This document shows, in pieces, positions 52,591 to 64,000 of a DNA stretch of 64,000 nucleotides. Location of the stretch: assembly GCF_900114765.1 (NCBI RefSeq), contig NZ_FOUD01000003.1, positions 1-64,000 of the forward strand, read 5' to 3'. The notes under the pieces were generated by a model, which saw only the letters and a list, made by a program, of their open reading frames with translations, was not told where the DNA came from and did no database searches. The position numbers were made by a program, and so were the translations under genes. The DNA comes from Halopseudomonas pachastrellae (GTDB taxonomy: Bacteria; Pseudomonadota; Gammaproteobacteria; Pseudomonadales; Pseudomonadaceae). Numbering within the stretch: position 1 is the first letter of the stretch; each line of letters starts with the position of its first letter.

Positions 52591-55011
<2,421 letters not shown>

Positions 55012-55136: not shown

Positions 55137-55862
55137 TCACCAGCGCTCTTCGGCAAGATATGAGTTATTCAGCAGCTCTCTGAGCTGACTCCATTGAGGA
55201 AGGTGTTGATTCAGAAGACTGATGAAACGGTCGTTGTGATGCCGTTCATGCAAATGGGCCAGCTCATGCACCAGGATGTACTCGAGGCATTGCACGGGCT
55301 TCTTGGCCAGTTCCAGGTTGAGCCAAATGCGCTGGGCTTCGATGTTGCAGGTGCCCCACTTGGTCTTCATGCGCTTGATGCCCCAGGCGCGCACTTCAAC
55401 CCCTAGCTTCGGTTGCCATTTTTCCAGCAGCTCCGGCACCAAGCGCTTCAACTCTGCACGATAGAAGTCCTGAATCACCTGCTCGCGCCGCTCGACGGTG
55501 GTCTCCGGGCGTACGAAAAGATCCATGCATGCCTTACCGCGCAGCGCTATATGCAGTGCTGTACCACTGGTCTCATGCACACGTAGGCGATACCGCTGGC
55601 CCAGGAAGTAATGGCTCTCGCCACTAACCATGCGTCGCTCGGATTGCCGGGGCTGGGCCTGAAACTTCGCCTGCTGGCGTTTGATCCAGCCAAGCTTACC
55701 TACGACTGCCTGGCGCACTGCTTCGTCATCTACCGCCAACGGAGCTGCCACACGCACACGTCCCTGTGGCGGATAAACACCTAGGTGCAAGTTCTTGATC
55801 GGCTTGCGCACGACTTCCACGGCCAAGCCGCTGACCGTGATCTTTCGGGACTCAGTACTCAT
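55137..55862 (-). CDS. YgjP-like (DUF45) zinc metallopeptidase domain protein, last gene of the hsd operon
   Basis: The 241-residue protein is read from ATG 55862 (MSTESRKITVSG), overlapping the hsdR end by 11 bp. It has the DUF45/YgjP fold: an N-terminal beta-rich domain (about 5-110) and a peptidase domain (about 130-241) with the zinc site VHELAHLHERHHNDRF (HExxH plus a downstream His), preceded by KTKWGTCNIEAQRIWLN. Such SprT/M48-type proteins are often found attached to type I restriction operons, but their role is not established. They could process HsdR or another subunit. It ends convergent with gyrB. Confidence 0.88.
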   Translation of the reverse strand: MSTESRKITVSGLAVEVVRKPIKNLHLGVYPPQGRVRVAAPLAVDDEAVRQAVVGKLGWIKRQQAKFQAQPRQSERRMVSGESHYFLGQRYRLRVHETSGTALHIALRGKACMDLFVRPETTVERREQVIQDFYRAELKRLVPELLEKWQPKLGVEVRAWGIKRMKTKWGTCNIEAQRIWLNLELAKKPVQCLEYILVHELAHLHERHHNDRFISLLNQHLPQWSQLRELLNNSYLAEERW

Positions 55863-58800
55863 GTTGATGCTTGACCAGTTCCAGCAAGGCATCTAGCCGT
55901 TCGTTCTCCTGTCCTGCCAAATATTCACCCCTGGTATCAGCTATGCCGCTGCCGCATTGATCCAGAGCCCCCTTGATTGCTAGGCGCACGCGTTTAATCT
56001 TCATTGCATTGCCGCGCCAGTCATCCTGTCGGCTGTCCAGTACGGCTGCATCCACGGCCAGTGCTAGGCCCGTATGCTGTCCGAGGTTGTCATACAGTGC
56101 CTTGCGGGCCGGGGTATTGATTGAACCGGGATAGTTGGTCGAGCTGGTGGGGTTCTTGGCCTGCTGAGCCAGCTTCACCACCTCATCCAGATATTCCTGG
56201 TAGCTGATGGCATCTTCCTTGCGCTTGACGATCAACGCATCCAGCAGCGAAGACATGGTCTCGTAGTATTTTGGGTTGATCGGCGACTCATCGATGATCA
56301 GCTTACGCACGTTGTTCTCGATGGTCTCGGCCACAGCTTCCTGACTTTCACGGATGCCCTTGGGCAGCGCGTCTACAGCTCCGACACCGCGCTCCACGAT
56401 CAGCTGGATCAGCGACATATCGTCGAAGGCAGAGATTTTCTCGCTCTCATCGGCACGGATGTAGGTGTCGATCAAGAAGCGCATGTCCGGCTCGTAGGCC
56501 TTCAAGTCGATGTAATCGCCACTGGCCAGCTTCACCTCGTCGCGCACTTTGGTGAAGTGATCGACCTCATCCTTGATCTCGGTGATTTCCCTGGCGTTAT
56601 AGCCTGCCTCTTCCAGCTCGTTGGCCAGGTTGCCGAAGCAGCGAATCAGCGCGGAGGTCATCTTGTACAGGTTCAGTCGCTTCGGCTCGTTGGTCTTGAG
56701 CACTTCGGCGTTACCTGAGTCGGTGCCGCAGAAGAAGCGGATATAGGCAGGCGTGTCCTTGGGTTTCTCAACCGGCTCGCACAGAGCCTTGATCGCCTCG
56801 CGGGCCTCCTCCAGGTCTTCCTGGGCTTTGCTCAGCCGGTCTTCCAGCAGGCCTGCCACATCGGCTTTGTCGTAGCCGTCCAGTGCGCCGCTGGTGTAGT
56901 CGCCGATGGCACCCTCCAGCTGCTTGAACAAGTCCTTGTAGTCGATGATGTAGCCATACTGCTTGTCCTCACCGTCCAGGCGGTTGACCCGGCAGATGGC
57001 CTGGAACAGACCGTGGTCGCGCATCTGCTTGTCGATGTAAAGGTAGGTGGCTGAAGGTGCATCGAATCCGGTCAGCAGCTTGTCCACCACGATGAGCAGA
57101 CGCATCTGCCCCGGCTCCTTGATGAAGCGCTGCTTCACTTCCTTCTCGAAGGTTTCCGGGTCTTTGTCGCCCAGCATCTGGTTGTAGATTTCGTACTGGC
57201 GCAGCTTCTCGGTCAACCCCTCTCCGGTGGCCTCGCCCTTGATATCCGCTGGCGAAGGCTTGTAGCTGGTGACGATGGCGCACTTGTCGCCCATTCCGGC
57301 CTTGCAGAACAGCTCATAGCACTTACAGGCTTCGAAGATACTGCTGGTGACCAGCATCGCATTACCCCGGCCATCAGCCAGGCGGTGCTTGGTAGCCATG
57401 TCCATCAGAATGTCAGCGACGATCTTCTCCAGTCGCGACTGGCTCGACAGCACTTTCTGCATCGTGCCCCAGCGCTGTTTGAGTTGGGCCTTGGCCAGGT
57501 CGTTCAGCCCCTTGGTCTTGGCCTCGAACCACTGATCGATCTTCTGCTGCGAGGTGATGTTCTGATCGATGTCGCGGGCTTCGTAGCGCAGGTCGAGTAC
57601 CACACCATCTGCAACGGCTTCATTGAATTTGTAGGTGTGGATGTAGCGGCCAAACACCTCGATGCTCTTCTGCTTGTCGGCCTTGAGCAGCGGCGTGCCG
57701 GTGAAACCGATAAACACGGCATTGGGCAGGATGGCCTTCATCGCCTTGTGAAGCTCGCCGGACTGGGTGCGGTGGCACTCGTCGACGAACACATAGAGAT
57801 CGCCCTTGGCGCGGAAGTCCGGCGGCAGGCTCTTGCGCAGCTCCTCAACAAAGTCTTCGACATCGGCATCCTCGCGGGCCCCGAATTTGTGGATCAGCGA
57901 GCACAGCAACCAGGGCGATGGTTGGTTGAGCTTGTCGATCAAGTCGGCACCGCTGGTGGTGCGCACGATCTGCTCATTGACGCCGGTAAACACCTTCTCG
58001 ATCTGCTCATCCAACTCGGTACGGTCGGTGATGATCAGCACACGCGAGTCCTGGATGTTTTCCCGAATCCACTTGGTCAGCCAGACCATGGTCAGGGATT
58101 TTCCCGAACCCTGAGTGTGCCAGATGATTCCGCCCTCGCGCCGACGCAGATAGCGCTGCGCCTCGCGGATGCCGAAGTATTGATTGTGCCGGCAGAGCTT
58201 TTTCACCCCGCTATCGAACACGATGTAGTCGTGAATCAGCTCCAGAAAGCGTGCCTTGTTGCACAGCTGAAGCAGATGCCGATCCAGCAGATTGTCGGCA
58301 GCTGCGCTGTCCGCGTTTTCCTCTTTCCAGGTGAGGTAGTACTTCTCGCCGGTCTGGATAGTGCCGTAGCGCAGGCCCTGGGAATCGTTGCCGGCCATCA
58401 CATACTGCATGGTGGAGAAGAATGGCTGGATAAACTCGGCCTTCTGGTTATCCAAGTTCTGCCGGATGCCTTCGTTCACCGCCACCTTGGAGCGCTTGAG
58501 CTCCAACACGCCCAGCGCAATGCCATTTACATAGAGCACGATATCCGGGCGCTTGGTATGGGCCTTGGCATCAGCGCCCTTGATGGTGACTTCCTCGGCA
58601 ATCGCGAAGTGGTTGCGCTCAAGATGCTTCCAGTCGATCAGCCACACAGTCTGGGTGTTTTCACCGACCTCGGGCTTGATCTTCACCCCGTAGCGCAGCA
58701 GCTCGTACACCGCCTTGTTGCGGTCATACAGGCCCTTGCTGGCGTCATTGGCGGCCTTGTTCAGCTCGAAGATGGCCCGGCTTGCCAGATTAGTCTCTAC

Positions 58801-58959
58801 GCCTTGGTCAATCAGCCAGCCACGCAGCAGTTCCGCTTCGATATTGGCGTTGTTAAGGCGCTCAGCCCAATCGCCCAGGTACTCATAGCCCAGTGCCTGC
58901 TGAAACAGCTTGGCCACGCGTTGCTGGGTCTTTTTTTCGATCTGGCCGACTGTAGTCAT
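55852..58959 (-). CDS. hsdR: Type I restriction endonuclease subunit R
   Basis: The 1035-residue motor and nuclease subunit is read from ATG 58959 (MTTVGQIEKK), with AAGGAA at better spacing than the ATG at 58965. The nuclease motif (RPDIVLYVNG...LELKRS; PD-ExK) is near residues 138-155. The helicase part has Walker A WHTQGSGKSLTM (about 282), DECHR (Walker B/DEAD-like), the GFTGTPLL motif and the late QAICRVNR motif VI. It translocates and cleaves unmethylated DNA with HsdM and HsdS. It is separated from hsdS by the inserted AAA/TOPRIM gene. Confidence 0.95.
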   Translation of the reverse strand: MTTVGQIEKKTQQRVAKLFQQALGYEYLGDWAERLNNANIEAELLRGWLIDQGVETNLASRAIFELNKAANDASKGLYDRNKAVYELLRYGVKIKPEVGENTQTVWLIDWKHLERNHFAIAEEVTIKGADAKAHTKRPDIVLYVNGIALGVLELKRSKVAVNEGIRQNLDNQKAEFIQPFFSTMQYVMAGNDSQGLRYGTIQTGEKYYLTWKEENADSAAADNLLDRHLLQLCNKARFLELIHDYIVFDSGVKKLCRHNQYFGIREAQRYLRRREGGIIWHTQGSGKSLTMVWLTKWIRENIQDSRVLIITDRTELDEQIEKVFTGVNEQIVRTTSGADLIDKLNQPSPWLLCSLIHKFGAREDADVEDFVEELRKSLPPDFRAKGDLYVFVDECHRTQSGELHKAMKAILPNAVFIGFTGTPLLKADKQKSIEVFGRYIHTYKFNEAVADGVVLDLRYEARDIDQNITSQQKIDQWFEAKTKGLNDLAKAQLKQRWGTMQKVLSSQSRLEKIVADILMDMATKHRLADGRGNAMLVTSSIFEACKCYELFCKAGMGDKCAIVTSYKPSPADIKGEATGEGLTEKLRQYEIYNQMLGDKDPETFEKEVKQRFIKEPGQMRLLIVVDKLLTGFDAPSATYLYIDKQMRDHGLFQAICRVNRLDGEDKQYGYIIDYKDLFKQLEGAIGDYTSGALDGYDKADVAGLLEDRLSKAQEDLEEAREAIKALCEPVEKPKDTPAYIRFFCGTDSGNAEVLKTNEPKRLNLYKMTSALIRCFGNLANELEEAGYNAREITEIKDEVDHFTKVRDEVKLASGDYIDLKAYEPDMRFLIDTYIRADESEKISAFDDMSLIQLIVERGVGAVDALPKGIRESQEAVAETIENNVRKLIIDESPINPKYYETMSSLLDALIVKRKEDAISYQEYLDEVVKLAQQAKNPTSSTNYPGSINTPARKALYDNLGQHTGLALAVDAAVLDSRQDDWRGNAMKIKRVRLAIKGALDQCGSGIADTRGEYLAGQENERLDALLELVKHQHEY

Positions 58960-58987
58960 TAACATCGTTCCTTGAAAACTCGTGGCG

Positions 58988-60487
58988 TTATTTAGCAGCT
59001 TCGTGTTCTTGAGTAGCTAGAATTTTTTCTTCCATCCACTCCCGAATATCGGATATGTAGTCATCCCATGCGGCTGACTTTGATGCGAGATCTACTATTT
59101 TTGAAAGACCGGTATTTCTCTCTAGGCCAATCCGAAAGATAATATCGTTCAAAAAACCATGATCATTGTCTACTGCAAAAATATCTTTAGCTGCATCAAT
59201 TATTTCGTTAAAGTCTTCATGCTCGCCATGTGGAATTTTGATAATTAATTGATGAATGAACCTCTCCGGGCTAACTGCATTTGGAAGCCTGAATTGAAAA
59301 ATCTTAGATAGAGCTTTTGTTCTGTTGCCTTCTGCGACGGGGTCATCCCCAGCAATAACTTTTCTTAACCTGTCTTCTTTTTCTTGAGTTTCGCGATAAA
59401 CGTCGCCATCCAATAGGAAAGCAGAGTTTTCACAATTATTTCCACAGGTCAGCAGCCCTCCAACAACAGTAAAGCAGTTTATAGCAGCGCCGTATCTCTG
59501 TATTGAGACATGTCTCGCCCCTCTATAGCTAGACGCAATTTTCTTAACTATCGCAGATGCCAAATCATCCTCAACGAACACCTCGATAGGCTTTGGCTGA
59601 GAGCCGGTAAGCCGATTTATTGCATCAGGTTTCGTTTCATTGAAGCATAATGATTTTTCAGCGACTCGCACTATGTGCCGTATATTAATTACCCCTTCAA
59701 GCTCCAGTACACTTTCCCTGTGTGTTGTAAATATTACCTGTAGATTTTTATCTTTTGCACGCTCATTTATGACACTGATAAGTTTTTTCATGGCTGAGTC
59801 ATGCAAAAGGAGATCTAGCTCATCAATAAGAAGTAGCGAGTTCTTCGGCGCTCTATATAAACGTTCAAGTATGTAAAATATTTTTTGCTCGCCAGCACTC
59901 ATGCTTATAGCTGAATATCTTAATGCATCTACTTCAACGCCAATAAAGGTTTTCCCAGAAGCCGTGTGTATGTTGTATTTTGAATATTCACGATTGAGAA
60001 TCGTCGACGCTTTACTCAGTATTGTCTCAATTACTTCCTCGGTAACCGCTTTGGTTGAGTAATTTATTTTTGCGTTCTTTTTCTCGGACTCAATCATTGG
60101 TACGCACTTATCTATTCCAATATAGAATACGTCGCGTTTTGGACGATTTGCATATCTAGGAGTCCAGCGTACATTGGTTTTCTTGTAAGCTCTTACCGCA
60201 CGGTCATGCATAGTCGCGTCGTCGCGATAACTGTGGACTATTTCGAGTTTACTTCCATTCCATAGTGCGTCTGTATTGGGCAGAAAAAAAGAGCTGAACT
60301 TATAATCTTCACCTTGTCCGTTCGGCTCAAATGCACATGCTAGCGCATGCAAAATAGTTGATTTCCCATTACCGTTCGGCCCAAGAATCGCAGTGACAGG
60401 CGCGCCATCAAATGATATTTCGAGATCATTGAGGTTCTTAAGATTTTGTACAACCAGTTTATGTATTACTTGTTGCGATATGGCCAC
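58988..60487 (-). CDS. AAA ATPase with C-terminal TOPRIM-like domain, embedded in the hsd operon
   Basis: The 499-residue protein has an ABC/SMC-like ATPase with Walker A GPNGNGKS (36-43), signature MSAGEQKI (196-203), Walker B SLLLIDELDLLLH (217-229) and the H-loop His in TTHRE (about 256). The C-terminal part (about 300-499) has IEVFVEDD with Glu306 and LLDGDVY with Asp360 and Asp362, the E and DxD arrangement of TOPRIM nucleases. This is the layout of OLD-type and fused PARIS-like (AAA plus DUF4435-type TOPRIM) defence proteins. The gene is visibly more AT-rich than hsdR, hsdS and hsdM, so it may have joined the operon separately. Its role in phage defence or control of restriction is inference; homology beyond the motifs was not tested. 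Confidence 0.8.
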   Translation of the reverse strand: MAISQQVIHKLVVQNLKNLNDLEISFDGAPVTAILGPNGNGKSTILHALACAFEPNGQGEDYKFSSFFLPNTDALWNGSKLEIVHSYRDDATMHDRAVRAYKKTNVRWTPRYANRPKRDVFYIGIDKCVPMIESEKKNAKINYSTKAVTEEVIETILSKASTILNREYSKYNIHTASGKTFIGVEVDALRYSAISMSAGEQKIFYILERLYRAPKNSLLLIDELDLLLHDSAMKKLISVINERAKDKNLQVIFTTHRESVLELEGVINIRHIVRVAEKSLCFNETKPDAINRLTGSQPKPIEVFVEDDLASAIVKKIASSYRGARHVSIQRYGAAINCFTVVGGLLTCGNNCENSAFLLDGDVYRETQEKEDRLRKVIAGDDPVAEGNRTKALSKIFQFRLPNAVSPERFIHQLIIKIPHGEHEDFNEIIDAAKDIFAVDNDHGFLNDIIFRIGLERNTGLSKIVDLASKSAAWDDYISDIREWMEEKILATQEHEAAK

Positions 60488-60527
60488 GTGAATTCTCTTT
60501 TATAACTTTACCGATCAATGAGGCTCG

Positions 60528-61775
60528 CTAAGCAAGTCTTATACGACCTGACAATAGCTCCTGCATCATGCCCTGCTTAAGCTGGCGAGCCTTATCGCGG
60601 CGGGATTCGAGGGCAGCGAGTTCGGCGTCCATATCGGAGAGGGTAGAGGCGACGGCGATTTGCTCACCCACATCAGGGATTGTTAACTCCAAGGCTCTCA
60701 ATTCTTTTGTGTTGATACTGGCTTGGCTCACAGCTTGTTTTGCTAAAGTTCTAGCAATGCGTCTTATAGTTTCGGAGCTGAGCAGAAAGAACAGGAAATC
60801 ACTATCAATATTTGAATTGGGTCTAAGCAGAATAAGGTTCATTCCGTGATAAAGCGGTTTGCAGTCGGAGTAGCGTGCGACTTTTCCAATATGATCAATG
60901 CTATTAATATGGCTATATAAAATGTCGCCGTGCTGAATTTTATACGACTCGATTTCTGGGCTTGGTTTGGCATGGCCAATACGATTCCAGTTAATAGTGC
61001 CATCTGAGATAGTTTCAATTCTGGTAATGGGTACGCCGTTTTTTTCGTCAGGCGTATAAACACAACCATTTGCCATGCGCGAAACTAAATCCCCCAGCCG
61101 CGCCACCCCCCACCCCCCACTAAACCCCGGCAGGCGGCGTTGGCCGGTGAGGAGTTGTTGCATGGCGGCTTGCTGGATGTCGCGTTTTTTTGCGATGAGC
61201 CGATCAATCTCAGTGAGTAGCACATCGACGTCCGAGAGGGCGCTGGCGATGGCGCGTTGTTCCTCCAGCATTGGTAAGGGAAACTTTATCTGGGAAAGTA
61301 CGTTTCCACTGAGAGATGGAAGAGCTGTGGTACTGACAAGATCGCTGAGGCGAGTATGTATCAGTCGATGATGCACGTAACGATAATCTGCTTTTTTATC
61401 GTCCAGCTCAAACGCCGTCATGTTGTTATCCAGACAGCTCGGCTGAGCAAGAATCCGCTTGCGCTCCAAAAATATTGCCGCACCGACTTTCGCGAAAACG
61501 ATGCTGTTTTCTGCAAAAATGGTAGCTCCAAGCGTCTTTCTGGTGATGTCACTGATGTAGTTATTGGCGACGAACATCCTGGTCTCGTTGCCCTCGTTGT
61601 TCATATCGGAAACTTTGAAGAATGGGTAGGTGCCCGTTACCTCCCCTTGGAATTTCAGTGGAAATCCATTCCCCCCACGAAATCGACCAATCTGTCCCGC
61701 AGTGACTAGATCCCACTCATCCGGAATCACCCCGACCTCGGTCATCTTGTAACCCGGTTTTATTTCCATGCTCAT
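60528..61775 (-). CDS. hsdS: Type I restriction-modification specificity subunit S
   Basis: The 415-residue protein is read from ATG 61775 (MSMEIKPGYKMTEVGVIPDE), overlapping the hsdM stop; the frame continues to 61955 within hsdM without conserved sequence. It has two target-recognition domains (about 15-190 and 225-390) separated and followed by the conserved helices LPMLEEQRAIASALSDVDVLLTEIDRLIAKKRDIQQAAMQQLLTGQ and IPDVGEQIAVASTLSDMDAELAALESRRDKARQ (given as positions about 180-225 and 370-410). The two domains read the halves of a bipartite target. The actual target sequence cannot be inferred. The recognition parts are more AT-rich than the helices, as is common. Confidence 0.95.
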   Translation of the reverse strand: MSMEIKPGYKMTEVGVIPDEWDLVTAGQIGRFRGGNGFPLKFQGEVTGTYPFFKVSDMNNEGNETRMFVANNYISDITRKTLGATIFAENSIVFAKVGAAIFLERKRILAQPSCLDNNMTAFELDDKKADYRYVHHRLIHTRLSDLVSTTALPSLSGNVLSQIKFPLPMLEEQRAIASALSDVDVLLTEIDRLIAKKRDIQQAAMQQLLTGQRRLPGFSGGWGVARLGDLVSRMANGCVYTPDEKNGVPITRIETISDGTINWNRIGHAKPSPEIESYKIQHGDILYSHINSIDHIGKVARYSDCKPLYHGMNLILLRPNSNIDSDFLFFLLSSETIRRIARTLAKQAVSQASINTKELRALELTIPDVGEQIAVASTLSDMDAELAALESRRDKARQLKQGMMQELLSGRIRLA

Positions 61776-64000
61776 ACCGCAAACCCCATCTTCATCAGAT
61801 GCGCATTCACCTTGACCGCCAGCGCCTCCACCTCGGCATTTAGCGCCGGTAGTGGCGTGGCATAGCGCTCGGCTAGTTGGCGGATACGACCAGTGAGGGC
61901 CTGGGAAACCCGATCCAGTTCGGTTTGCACATCGGCTTGCAGGGTGGCCAGCCATTTGTTGTCCACTACCAGATTTTTCAATTCGGCCTCACTGAGCTGG
62001 GCGTAGTGGGCCAGCACTTTGGCATCCAGCATCTTCTGCGCGGCTTTGACCTTTTTGCTGGCTTCGGCCTCGCGCTGGATCAGTTCCAAGCATTGCTCCA
62101 GTGCCTGGCGTTCTTCGTCGGCGTCACGCTCGTGCTTGATGGCCTTGAGGCGCGCCTTGACGCTGGCAGCAGTGAGCTTGCCCTTGTCGGTCTTGCCTTC
62201 AGCCAGTGGGCCATCTTCACCGCCCTGCTCCTCGTCCAGCTCTTCCAGCTCGCGGCTGATGGCATCACGTTTGGCTTCCAGCTCGGTGATGGCGGCGGCT
62301 TCGGCGGCGTAGTAGCGGCGCACAATCAATTCGGGCGGCAGCAGATCGGTATTGGGGTCGCCCTGGCTAGAGCCGCTGGCAATTAGCGGCTTCCATCCAT
62401 CGATCACCAGTTGGTAGACATCATCCTGCAAGGTGGCATACCAATAGTCCTGAAGGTGCTGGTAGACGTCGTAGGCATTCAGCAGCGGCGCGGCCTCGAA
62501 GCGGTGCAGCAAGTCTTCAGCCAGTTGCTTGAGCAGCGCCTTGGGCTGGTCGCCAATGGCGATGCCGGTTAGGTTCGGGCGGTGTTCGTCACGCCAGGCC
62601 TCGAACAAACCCGCCACAGTATGGCGGAAGGCGTCGAACTCGGGATGGCCGAAGATGGTTGGCTTGATCTCGCTAATGGAGACCCTCAGGCTGAGGTATC
62701 CAGGGCGCAGTGGCTCGAACAGCGCGCCGCGCAGGTTCGGCATTACCCCCCAGTAGGCCTGAAGGGCGTCGATATCTCGCTCGGGAATGCCGCCATGCAG
62801 GTGGGCTTCAATGTCCTGAAGATCCTCAGCTTCGCTGGTGTCGATATAGCGCGGGATATTCAGGTTGAAGTCGTTGGCCTCGATCTCGGCCATGGGCACC
62901 AGTCGTGCGAATTTCTCCACTTCAAGCTGCTGGGTGAAGGTATCGACGATCTTGTGGATGTCTTGTTCACGCAGGCGGTTTTTGTTGCCGTCCTTGATAA
63001 AGCCCTTGCTGGCATCGATCAGGAACAGGCCCTTGCGCCCGGCACTGCCTTCCTTGTCCAGCACGATGATGCAGGCAGGAATTCCGGTGCCGTAGAACAG
63101 GTTGGCTGGCAGGCCGATGATGCCCTGGATGTAACCCTGCTGGAGGATGCGCTTGCGGATTGCGGCCTCGGCACCGCCCCGGAAAAGTACACCGTGGGGC
63201 AGAATCACCGCCGCCTTGCCGGTGCTCTTCAGCGAGGTGAGCATGTGCAAGAGGAAGGCATAGTCGCCGTTCTTCTCGGGCGGAATTCCGTAGCTGAAAC
63301 GGTTGTACTCATCCTCCGCCGGGTTGAAGCCATTGCTCCAAGCCTTGGTGGAGAACGGAGGGTTGGCGACGATAAAGTCGAACAGCTTGAGGTAGCCCAG
63401 CCGGTCTTTGAAATGGGGTGCGGACAGGGTGTTGTCCTTCCAGATCTCCGCCGTAGGGCAGTCGTGCAGGATCATGTTCATCTTGGCTAGGGCGCTGGTC
63501 GCGTTGTCCATTTCCTGCCCGTAGATGGCCAGATCCAGCCCTGTGGCGCTCTTTGCTTCGTCGTGGGCCTTGAGCAGCAGCGATCCTGAACCGCAGGTCG
63601 GGTCATAGATGCTCTGCTTGCTGTCGGTAGCGCCTGCCAGGCCGATGACCTGGGCAATGATCCGCGACACTTCTGCGGGGGTGTAGAACTGCCCCTTGCT
63701 CTTACCGGACTCAGTGGCGAAGTGGCGCATCAGGTATTCGTAGGCATCGCCAAGGATGTCGTCGCCCTGGGCACGGTTGCCTTTGAAGTTGAGTGCCGGG
63801 GTGTTGAAGATGCTGACCAGGTTGGACAGACGGTCTACCATCTCCTTGCCCTTACCGAGTTTCTCCTGGTCGTTGAAGTCGGCTACGTCGATGACGCCGG
63901 TGAGGTTGTTCGCCTCGGCTAGACGGGAGATGATCTGGTTGATCTTGTCGCCGATCTCCTTGTCGCCCTTGAGCGCCACCATGTCAGCAAAGCTGCCGCC
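61772..64000 (-). CDS. hsdM: Type I restriction-modification DNA methyltransferase subunit M (5' end outside the window)
   Basis: At least 742 residues are present; the frame is open to the right edge (GGSFAD precedes the internal Met at 63982), so the N-terminus is missing. The N6-adenine methyltransferase core is clear: GQFYTPAEVSRIIAQVIGLA, SAM loop DPTCGSGSLL, catalytic NPPFSTKAW and KAAVILPHGVLFRGGAE. A long C-terminal extension (about the last 240 residues) is rich in Glu/Lys and predicted coiled coil, longer than in the standard 500-residue HsdM. It starts the visible operon; hsdS overlaps its stop by 4 bp. Confidence 0.93.
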   Translation of the reverse strand, partial: GGSFADMVALKGDKEIGDKINQIISRLAEANNLTGVIDVADFNDQEKLGKGKEMVDRLSNLVSIFNTPALNFKGNRAQGDDILGDAYEYLMRHFATESGKSKGQFYTPAEVSRIIAQVIGLAGATDSKQSIYDPTCGSGSLLLKAHDEAKSATGLDLAIYGQEMDNATSALAKMNMILHDCPTAEIWKDNTLSAPHFKDRLGYLKLFDFIVANPPFSTKAWSNGFNPAEDEYNRFSYGIPPEKNGDYAFLLHMLTSLKSTGKAAVILPHGVLFRGGAEAAIRKRILQQGYIQGIIGLPANLFYGTGIPACIIVLDKEGSAGRKGLFLIDASKGFIKDGNKNRLREQDIHKIVDTFTQQLEVEKFARLVPMAEIEANDFNLNIPRYIDTSEAEDLQDIEAHLHGGIPERDIDALQAYWGVMPNLRGALFEPLRPGYLSLRVSISEIKPTIFGHPEFDAFRHTVAGLFEAWRDEHRPNLTGIAIGDQPKALLKQLAEDLLHRFEAAPLLNAYDVYQHLQDYWYATLQDDVYQLVIDGWKPLIASGSSQGDPNTDLLPPELIVRRYYAAEAAAITELEAKRDAISRELEELDEEQGGEDGPLAEGKTDKGKLTAASVKARLKAIKHERDADEERQALEQCLELIQREAEASKKVKAAQKMLDAKVLAHYAQLSEAELKNLVVDNKWLATLQADVQTELDRVSQALTGRIRQLAERYATPLPALNAEVEALAVKVNAHLMKMGFAV

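Follow-up and report, generated by a model that had tools for sequence, protein, structure and literature searches.

We examined a gene embedded in a type I restriction-modification (R-M) operon of Halopseudomonas pachastrellae, within a 64,000-nucleotide stretch of contig NZ_FOUD01000003.1 (positions 1 to 64,000, hereafter the window). The gene, at 58988..60487 on the minus strand, is an open reading frame (ORF) of 499 amino acids (aa) with a GTG start, which sits between hsdS and hsdR. Judged by its sequence, the product is a full-length homologue of IbfA of plasmid R64, a family also called HEC-04. We consider it fairly probable that this protein is an IbfA/HEC-04-type, ATP-gated TOPRIM nuclease, carried as cargo of the operon and acting as a second defence layer independent of HsdR. 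Our calculations support the family assignment, the fold, the invariant acidic residues and the variability of the slot that holds the gene.

The family identity was established from the ORF list, the PADLOC models and comparison with R64. The best PADLOC model was HEC-04 (E 2.2e-44), matched over residues 6-383 only, while the runner-up reached 3.8e-21. R64 IbfA aligns with residues 2-486 of the window protein at 47% identity (234 of 493 aligned columns), and at exactly the published ibfA coordinates the R64 record lists a gene for an AAA family ATPase. This homology ruled out a new protein family. The IbfA proteins of R64 and pUA1135 share the length class, whole-chain homology and ATPase-TOPRIM plan of the window protein, and an IncI relative (L049) has the same invariant acids. 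The settings differ, in that the described genes are either plasmid-borne (IncI1), sharing an operon with ydfA, ydeA and a ProQ-type gene, or Hma-embedded, whereas the window gene is chromosomal and lies in a type I R-M operon.

Phage interference is published for these homologues. The R64 ibfA coordinates are given in PMC8004404, which also states that R64 ibfA inhibits BF23. According to PMC12111858, a P22-like phage shows a smaller burst and reduced plaquing with ibfA of pUA1135, the course being abortive-like, and deletion of ibfA restores infection. In the presence of IbfA, phage genome replication was unchanged and late transcripts were low; intracellular phage DNA rose as in the control, with a non-significant fall at 50 min (PMC12111858). 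The same source describes IbfA as homologous to HEC-04, a Hma-embedded candidate active against T4 and T5 and not against T7 or lambda, a statement that conflicts with an older report cited there, in which R64 ibfA interferes with T7. By analogy with IbfA of R64 and pUA1135, an anti-phage role is likely for the window protein.

The first-pass annotation, made from the DNA letters and their translations, had described an ATPase and a TOPRIM-like C-terminus joined in one gene between hsdS and hsdR, and this description held. The motifs GPNGNGKS, SAGEQ, LLLIDELD and TTH, Glu306 and the DGD at 360-362 are all present, and sequence and modelling together confirmed a predicted SMC/ABC-type ATPase followed by a C-terminal TOPRIM domain in one chain. 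When the C-terminal domain was folded alone, the model was confident (predicted local distance difference test, pLDDT, 93.4) and its best fold matches were OLD TOPRIM domains. Within the TOPRIM and helical region (residues 296-499; 58991..59602, minus strand), E306, D307, D360, D362 and E408 are invariant in all 17 aligned rows, and E306, D360 and D362 retain the Glu, Asp and Asp that form the metal-A acids of the OLD family. The E306-to-D360 spacing is 54, as in TsOLD (54), and 55 in BpOLD and P2 Old. E408, a candidate for the second, downstream metal-B Glu of the OLD family, stands 48 residues after D360 (49 in TsOLD, 53 in BpOLD and 90 in P2 Old), a comparison of spacing only. Sequence searches for solved structures related to the C-terminal region gave two chance-level matches only, and a BFVD fold search gave nothing at E<=0.001. 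The full-length conservation in distant taxa indicates more than a chance ORF. From sequence and models, we infer ATPase and nuclease activity for the IbfA-type protein.

The position of the gene is best understood from related operons. Relatives of hsdR at E<=1e-200 were found at 23 places, 11 of them among 198 genomes of the family (own place excluded) and 12 among 194 genomes of the order, and the slots were counted by eye on ORF tables. The two genes bounding the slot can be read in 21 of the 23, where the slot is filled in 18 and empty in three (L112, L115 and L118); at the other two places (L095 and L107) cargo abuts hsdR with hsdS off the contig. The same insertion, which the first-pass annotation had suggested looking for in other hsd operons, did not recur among these relatives: the 18 filled slots hold other genes, and tblastn with the window protein gave no label at any of the 23 places. 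The cargo recognised by Pfam or PADLOC comprises GmrSD pairs, DarT with a macro-domain partner, YhcG/DUF1016, Schlafen AlbA_2 and Ppl-type proteins, a zeta-toxin match with a sub-threshold AbiH match, NERD, PDC-S04 and DUF6932. Several more were labelled by BLAST or eye only, and proteins of 263, 303 and 429 aa, with some others, had no match. Inserts were seen at none of 20 visible hsdR-ygjP junctions (Fisher test against the slot, p = 7.5e-9) and at four of 19 hsdM-hsdS junctions (p = 7.9e-5); the operons are related, so these p values overstate independence. That relatives carry other genes there suggests that the hsdS-hsdR gap is a cargo slot. The hsdM-hsdS junction is a second, rarer insertion point, with YhcG/DUF1016 genes at L089:12231-13286, L090:964-2010, L113:10673-11716 and L114:7603-8655; this label comes from Pfam for L089 and from BLAST or inspection by eye for the other three.

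The slot itself is already known from print, where DarTG2 and TgvAB occupy it. TgvAB sits in a type I operon and its defence is independent of HsdR restriction (PMC11411939), and the same source mentions that RloF of Campylobacter lies between hsdR and hsdS. Both PMC12255303 and PMC12988326 use the phrase guilt-by-embedding.

Comparison with close relatives located the edges of the variable slot (58960..60527, minus strand, from the hsdS stop to the hsdR start). The most informative operon, in a genome of the same genus (L086), also lies beside gyrB (98.6%) and encodes an HsdR 95% and an HsdM 97% identical to those of the window, while its hsdS differs. Its slot is filled by an AAA_15 protein of 644 aa that matches an OLD-like TOPRIM (2e-5). 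By blastn, the two DNAs are 95% identical through the hsdM stop; two patches of hsdS align, and 91% homology restarts at the hsdR ATG at 58959. L087 regains alignment at the same base, and L088 does so nine bases further on; towards hsdM, the L087 alignment runs about 60 bases into hsdS and that of L088 ends short of the hsdM end. Thus hsdS and the cargo form a single differing block, flanked by conserved DNA and reaching to the hsdR start codon, and they may move as one cassette.

The composition of the gene differs from that of its neighbours, as the first-pass annotation had also noted. Its GC content and third-position GC content are 40.7% and 35.6%, compared with 59.3% and 77.2% for hsdM, 57.5% and 77.9% for hsdR, and 49.1% and 52.9% for hsdS. 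The slots of L086, L087 and L088 have 40.4%, 44.4% and 48.2% GC, each below hsdR. Over all 20 occupied slots the median GC deficit is 3.9 points, and GC is lower than in hsdR in 16.

Family members also occur beside R-M genes elsewhere. We compared 19 genome loci, namely the window, 16 homologue loci, G030 and G321, and judged neighbours by eye on predicted ORFs with the aid of tblastn with the window Hsd proteins and, for the R-M candidates of L005, L009, L015 and L016 only, a Pfam scan. Five loci (the window, L016, L009, L015 and L005) lie in or beside R-M genes, spanning types I, II and III; five of 19 is a raw count. In Aliidiomarina (L016), the hsdM and hsdR are Pfam-confirmed and of another type, 27-30% identical to those of the window, and between them stand an hsdS-like ORF, an ORF of 310 aa and two transposase-like genes as well; this pair (L016:12158-13380, by eye) separates the IbfA-type gene from hsdR. 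The L009 locus is of type III, with the IbfA-type gene between the methylase and Res genes, and the L015 gene adjoins a type III Res gene on a contig that begins just upstream. In Brenneria (L005), EcoRII, a cytosine methylase and Vsr are followed by the IbfA-type gene. The L005 protein (L005:4020-6050) is fused to 177 extra N-terminal residues that have no Pfam match and could represent a sensor domain.

Homologues lying mostly outside defence loci had been named in the first-pass annotation as counting against its reading, and this was borne out in part, since 14 of the 19 loci were not seen in an R-M operon. One of these (L012) has a cytosine methylase and a Vsr-like ORF 1.5-4 kb away and was not counted as R-M-associated; in the remaining 13, no R-M gene was recognised alongside, and four (L008, L011, L014 and L017) are cut or broken nearby. 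Likewise, no R-M gene was seen beside the family gene in seven plasmid stretches. A restriction of the family to R-M operons was rejected on these counts, the window being one of the five. In a tree of 21 members, the R-M label takes four changes, gains or losses, three of them forced by well-supported branches; shuffled labels took 4.6 changes on average, and 148 of 500 shuffles were as low as four, indicating that the R-M members are scattered rather than clustered. That the R-M genes are of three types points to separate arrivals. Loci L013, L014 and L017 (broken frames), L059 (partial), L057 (a repeat of L012) and L018 (a repeat of L002) were omitted from the alignments and tree, and L053, a near copy of L052, from the tree only.

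The family recurs on plasmids and is sparse on chromosomes. By tblastn, 903 of 72,556 plasmid records matched, 837 of them over at least 80% of the query; 855 came from Escherichia, Salmonella or Klebsiella, and none exceeded 60% identity. A branch at 31% identity is found on IncF-type plasmids (L052:7977-9542, L053:7977-9542 and L054:7974-9545); the L054 gene lies one gene from pifC, and L052 has other defence-annotated genes nearby. DNA matches were obtained in 382 of 5,426 E. coli genomes, none covering 80% of the query, with 408 of 413 places on plasmids. None of 50,697 phage records matched, which disfavours a phage origin. Ten viral-contig loci were found, four at E<=1e-61 (L057-L060), two at 1e-22 and 5e-20, and four weak. 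In the order, 106 of 390 genomes matched at E<=0.001, yet only four contain family members (E<1e-200); the next match is at 2.5e-21 and the rest are weaker, mostly to the ATPase part. The copy in G104 is identical to the L002 protein. At E<=1e-30, a profile found one of 369 genomes in the class (own genome), two of 398 in the phylum (own and G1090), three of 248 in the own family (own, G1206 and G1354), and one of 44 and one of 37 in the families of G104 and G321, the centre itself each time. The order, class, phylum and one family search scored 3-6 candidates per genome and give lower bounds. The distant G1090, G1206 and G1354 were omitted from the context count.

These observations fit a mechanism in several steps. 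The gene would have been acquired as cargo in the exchangeable hsdS-hsdR slot and would be expressed with the type I R-M operon. Its product would be a single-chain, ATP-gated TOPRIM nuclease, kin to the OLD proteins, in which the ATPase domain would serve as sensor and clamp. A phage product or intermediate would change the state of this domain and so switch on the C-terminal nuclease, which would damage host or phage nucleic acid and abort the infection, as a second layer with no need for HsdR. We infer the trigger and the independence from HsdR here, and TgvAB offers a precedent for HsdR-independent cargo that supports this proposal (PMC11411939). The protein is thus probably a second, separate line of defence and not part of the restriction enzyme. 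With regard to the target, the unchanged phage genome replication and low late transcripts reported with IbfA (PMC12111858) lead us to lean faintly, by analogy, towards RNA or another host target over phage DNA. The fold alone does not reveal the substrate, because AriB cuts tRNA (PMC12409363) and OLDs cut DNA (PMC10568477).

Several points weigh against this proposal. Of the two checks named in the first-pass annotation, the structure model of the C-terminus is OLD-TOPRIM-like, whereas the profile search did not agree: the 19 Pfam families listed at E<=1 include none for TOPRIM, OLD or DUF4435. Our TOPRIM assignment is made from the predicted fold and the invariant acids. The OLD metal-B acid at +4 is absent, residue 310 being Ala in 14 and Ser in three of the 17 rows, although the invariant D307 might substitute for it. 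The full-length model is poor in the ATPase half (pLDDT 71.6, predicted template modelling score 0.44), too poor to superpose. In E. coli YbjD, the TOPRIM domain is dispensable for the phage phenotype (PMC13261556), and by analogy the TOPRIM domain may not be the effector here. Vector-borne ibfA restored interference incompletely, and further genes may help (PMC12111858). Moreover, tgvAB alone was 10- to 100-fold less protective against several phages than the whole type I cluster (PMC11411939), so that cargo and operon may interact. Finally, co-transcription with the operon is presumed from the spacing and the lack of terminator-like matches in the two gaps, and one weak promoter-like match lies within the IbfA-type gene on its own strand.

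The PARIS-like parts of the protein and its embedding beside R-M genes of three types raise another explanation, namely a guard that senses R-M-inhibiting phage proteins or the inhibited enzyme and kills only then, so that the R-M placement would be functional; T5-like phages are shared targets. We regard such a guard as unlikely. An R-M operon was not seen around 14 of the 19 genome loci (the four cut or broken ones among them), and ibfA works from a plasmid outside an R-M operon, although the hosts' own R-M systems are not addressed in the available part of PMC12111858. HEC-04 is said to be inactive against T7, a carrier of Ocr, and this evidence is mixed in view of the older R64 report (PMC12111858). 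In addition, unrelated modules fill the same slot in relatives. A broader version, which we find decidedly unlikely, would make IbfA/HEC-04 a general one-chain restriction guard that settles by type I-III R-M genes, reads R-M inactivation and aborts infection, with plasmid copies guarding the R-M systems of their recipients. The family would then be a single-protein counterpart of PARIS and PrrC, the latter cited in PMC9122126 for a comparable second-line role in defence.

We strongly doubt that the protein is a DNA nuclease of the OLD type that attacks phage DNA itself and lacks an abortive phase: its best fold matches are OLD DNA nucleases and the metal-A acids are kept, but phage DNA rises as in the control with IbfA, the course is abortive-like (PMC12111858), and the +4 metal-B acid is missing. 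A neutral hitch-hiker or decaying insert of no present function, as the AT-rich composition, the rarity (four strong matches in 390 genomes of the order) and the frameshifts that break relatives L013, L014 and L017 in their assemblies might hint, is very improbable for a gene whose frame is intact and motif residues invariant, which has full-length kin across phyla and sits in the slot without disturbing its neighbours.

The operon reads, on the minus strand, hsdM, hsdS, the IbfA-type gene, hsdR and a YgjP/SprT-like metallopeptidase gene, and gyrB adjoins it. The N6 methyltransferase gene hsdM (61772..64000), assigned by family match and neighbour analysis, has its 5' end outside the window at contig position 64171 and overlaps hsdS by ATGA. 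The specificity gene hsdS (60528..61775; Methylase_S), which varies among relatives along with the cargo, aligns to L086, L087 and L088 in short patches only. The hsdR gene (Pfam scan and blastn) occupies 55852..58965. The metallopeptidase gene (55137..55892; PF01863, 7.2e-60) is the last of the operon and follows hsdR directly in all 20 relatives showing both, as judged by eye. On the plus strand, gyrB (52597..55011), known from the ORF list and neighbour tables, is a chromosomal landmark. An hsd operon beside a gyrB match is also seen in L086 (L086:1-2121) and, with a short gyrB stretch, in another family of the order (L112:2-190), which suggests that the gyrB vicinity is a favoured place for hsd operons. 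The shared direction of the genes stood as first annotated, with spacers given as 28-40 bp: 40 bp separate hsdS from the IbfA-type gene, and 28 bp separate the latter from hsdR with the ATG at 58959, a distance that falls to 22 bp with the ATG at 58965. Neither spacer contains a terminator-like match, and promoter-like matches in the region number two on both strands, compared with 5.0 expected by chance. The gene before hsdM, just past the window (L085:9229-10992; contig 64228-65991), encodes 587 aa with weak similarity to HsdM (25%), and L086 has a counterpart of 587 aa in the same place; the protein is possibly a fused or degenerate M/S paralogue. The hexamer TAGCTA, of a type that in the RptR island stands at least twice before hsdM, occurs in its exact form four times in 19 kb (2.29 expected), once upstream of the small first ORF (L085:11520).

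Our work connects ibfA, a poorly understood plasmid gene for which action against BF23 and a P22-like phage has been reported, with an R-M operon on a chromosome. It also maps, for one operon at one chromosomal site, how close relatives differ in a block made up of the specificity gene and cargo. The family and the kind of slot are known; the recurrence of IbfA/HEC-04 next to R-M genes of all three types was not found in the literature searched, which consisted mostly of titles and the starts of abstracts, with bioRxiv preprints, many subscription papers and the paper naming the HEC candidates outside it. The protein also offers a further case for the question, posed in a review of OLD proteins (PMC10568477), of whether an ATPase-TOPRIM protein can defend the cell alone.

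Among known systems, the OLD family (class 1, TsOLD and P2 Old; class 2, GajA) shares with the window protein the order of ABC ATPase and TOPRIM, the metal-A E/D/D with matching spacing and the best fold match; it differs in the unmatched Pfam OLD-TOPRIM model and in the +4 metal-B acid, which is Ala or Ser in the window family. Class 1 OLD genes are described as single genes away from defence genes (PMC10568477), whereas the window gene lies inside an hsd operon. PARIS, which senses Ocr (PMC9122126), consists of AriA and AriB, sometimes fused, and a fused PARIS had been the reading of the first-pass annotation. We set this aside in favour of a known family rather than a new fusion, since the DUF4435 of AriB is not among the Pfam families listed and the AriAB PADLOC model, with its best stretch in the ATPase part, scores far below HEC-04. 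The closest parallels in gene order are the RptR-RMS-DarTG-M48 island and the TgvAB-embedded type I R-M system, which share the hsdM-hsdS-[cargo]-hsdR order with the window operon and differ from it in the cargo; the RptR island likewise has a metallopeptidase gene downstream, and its cargo site has been called a potential recombination hotspot in print.
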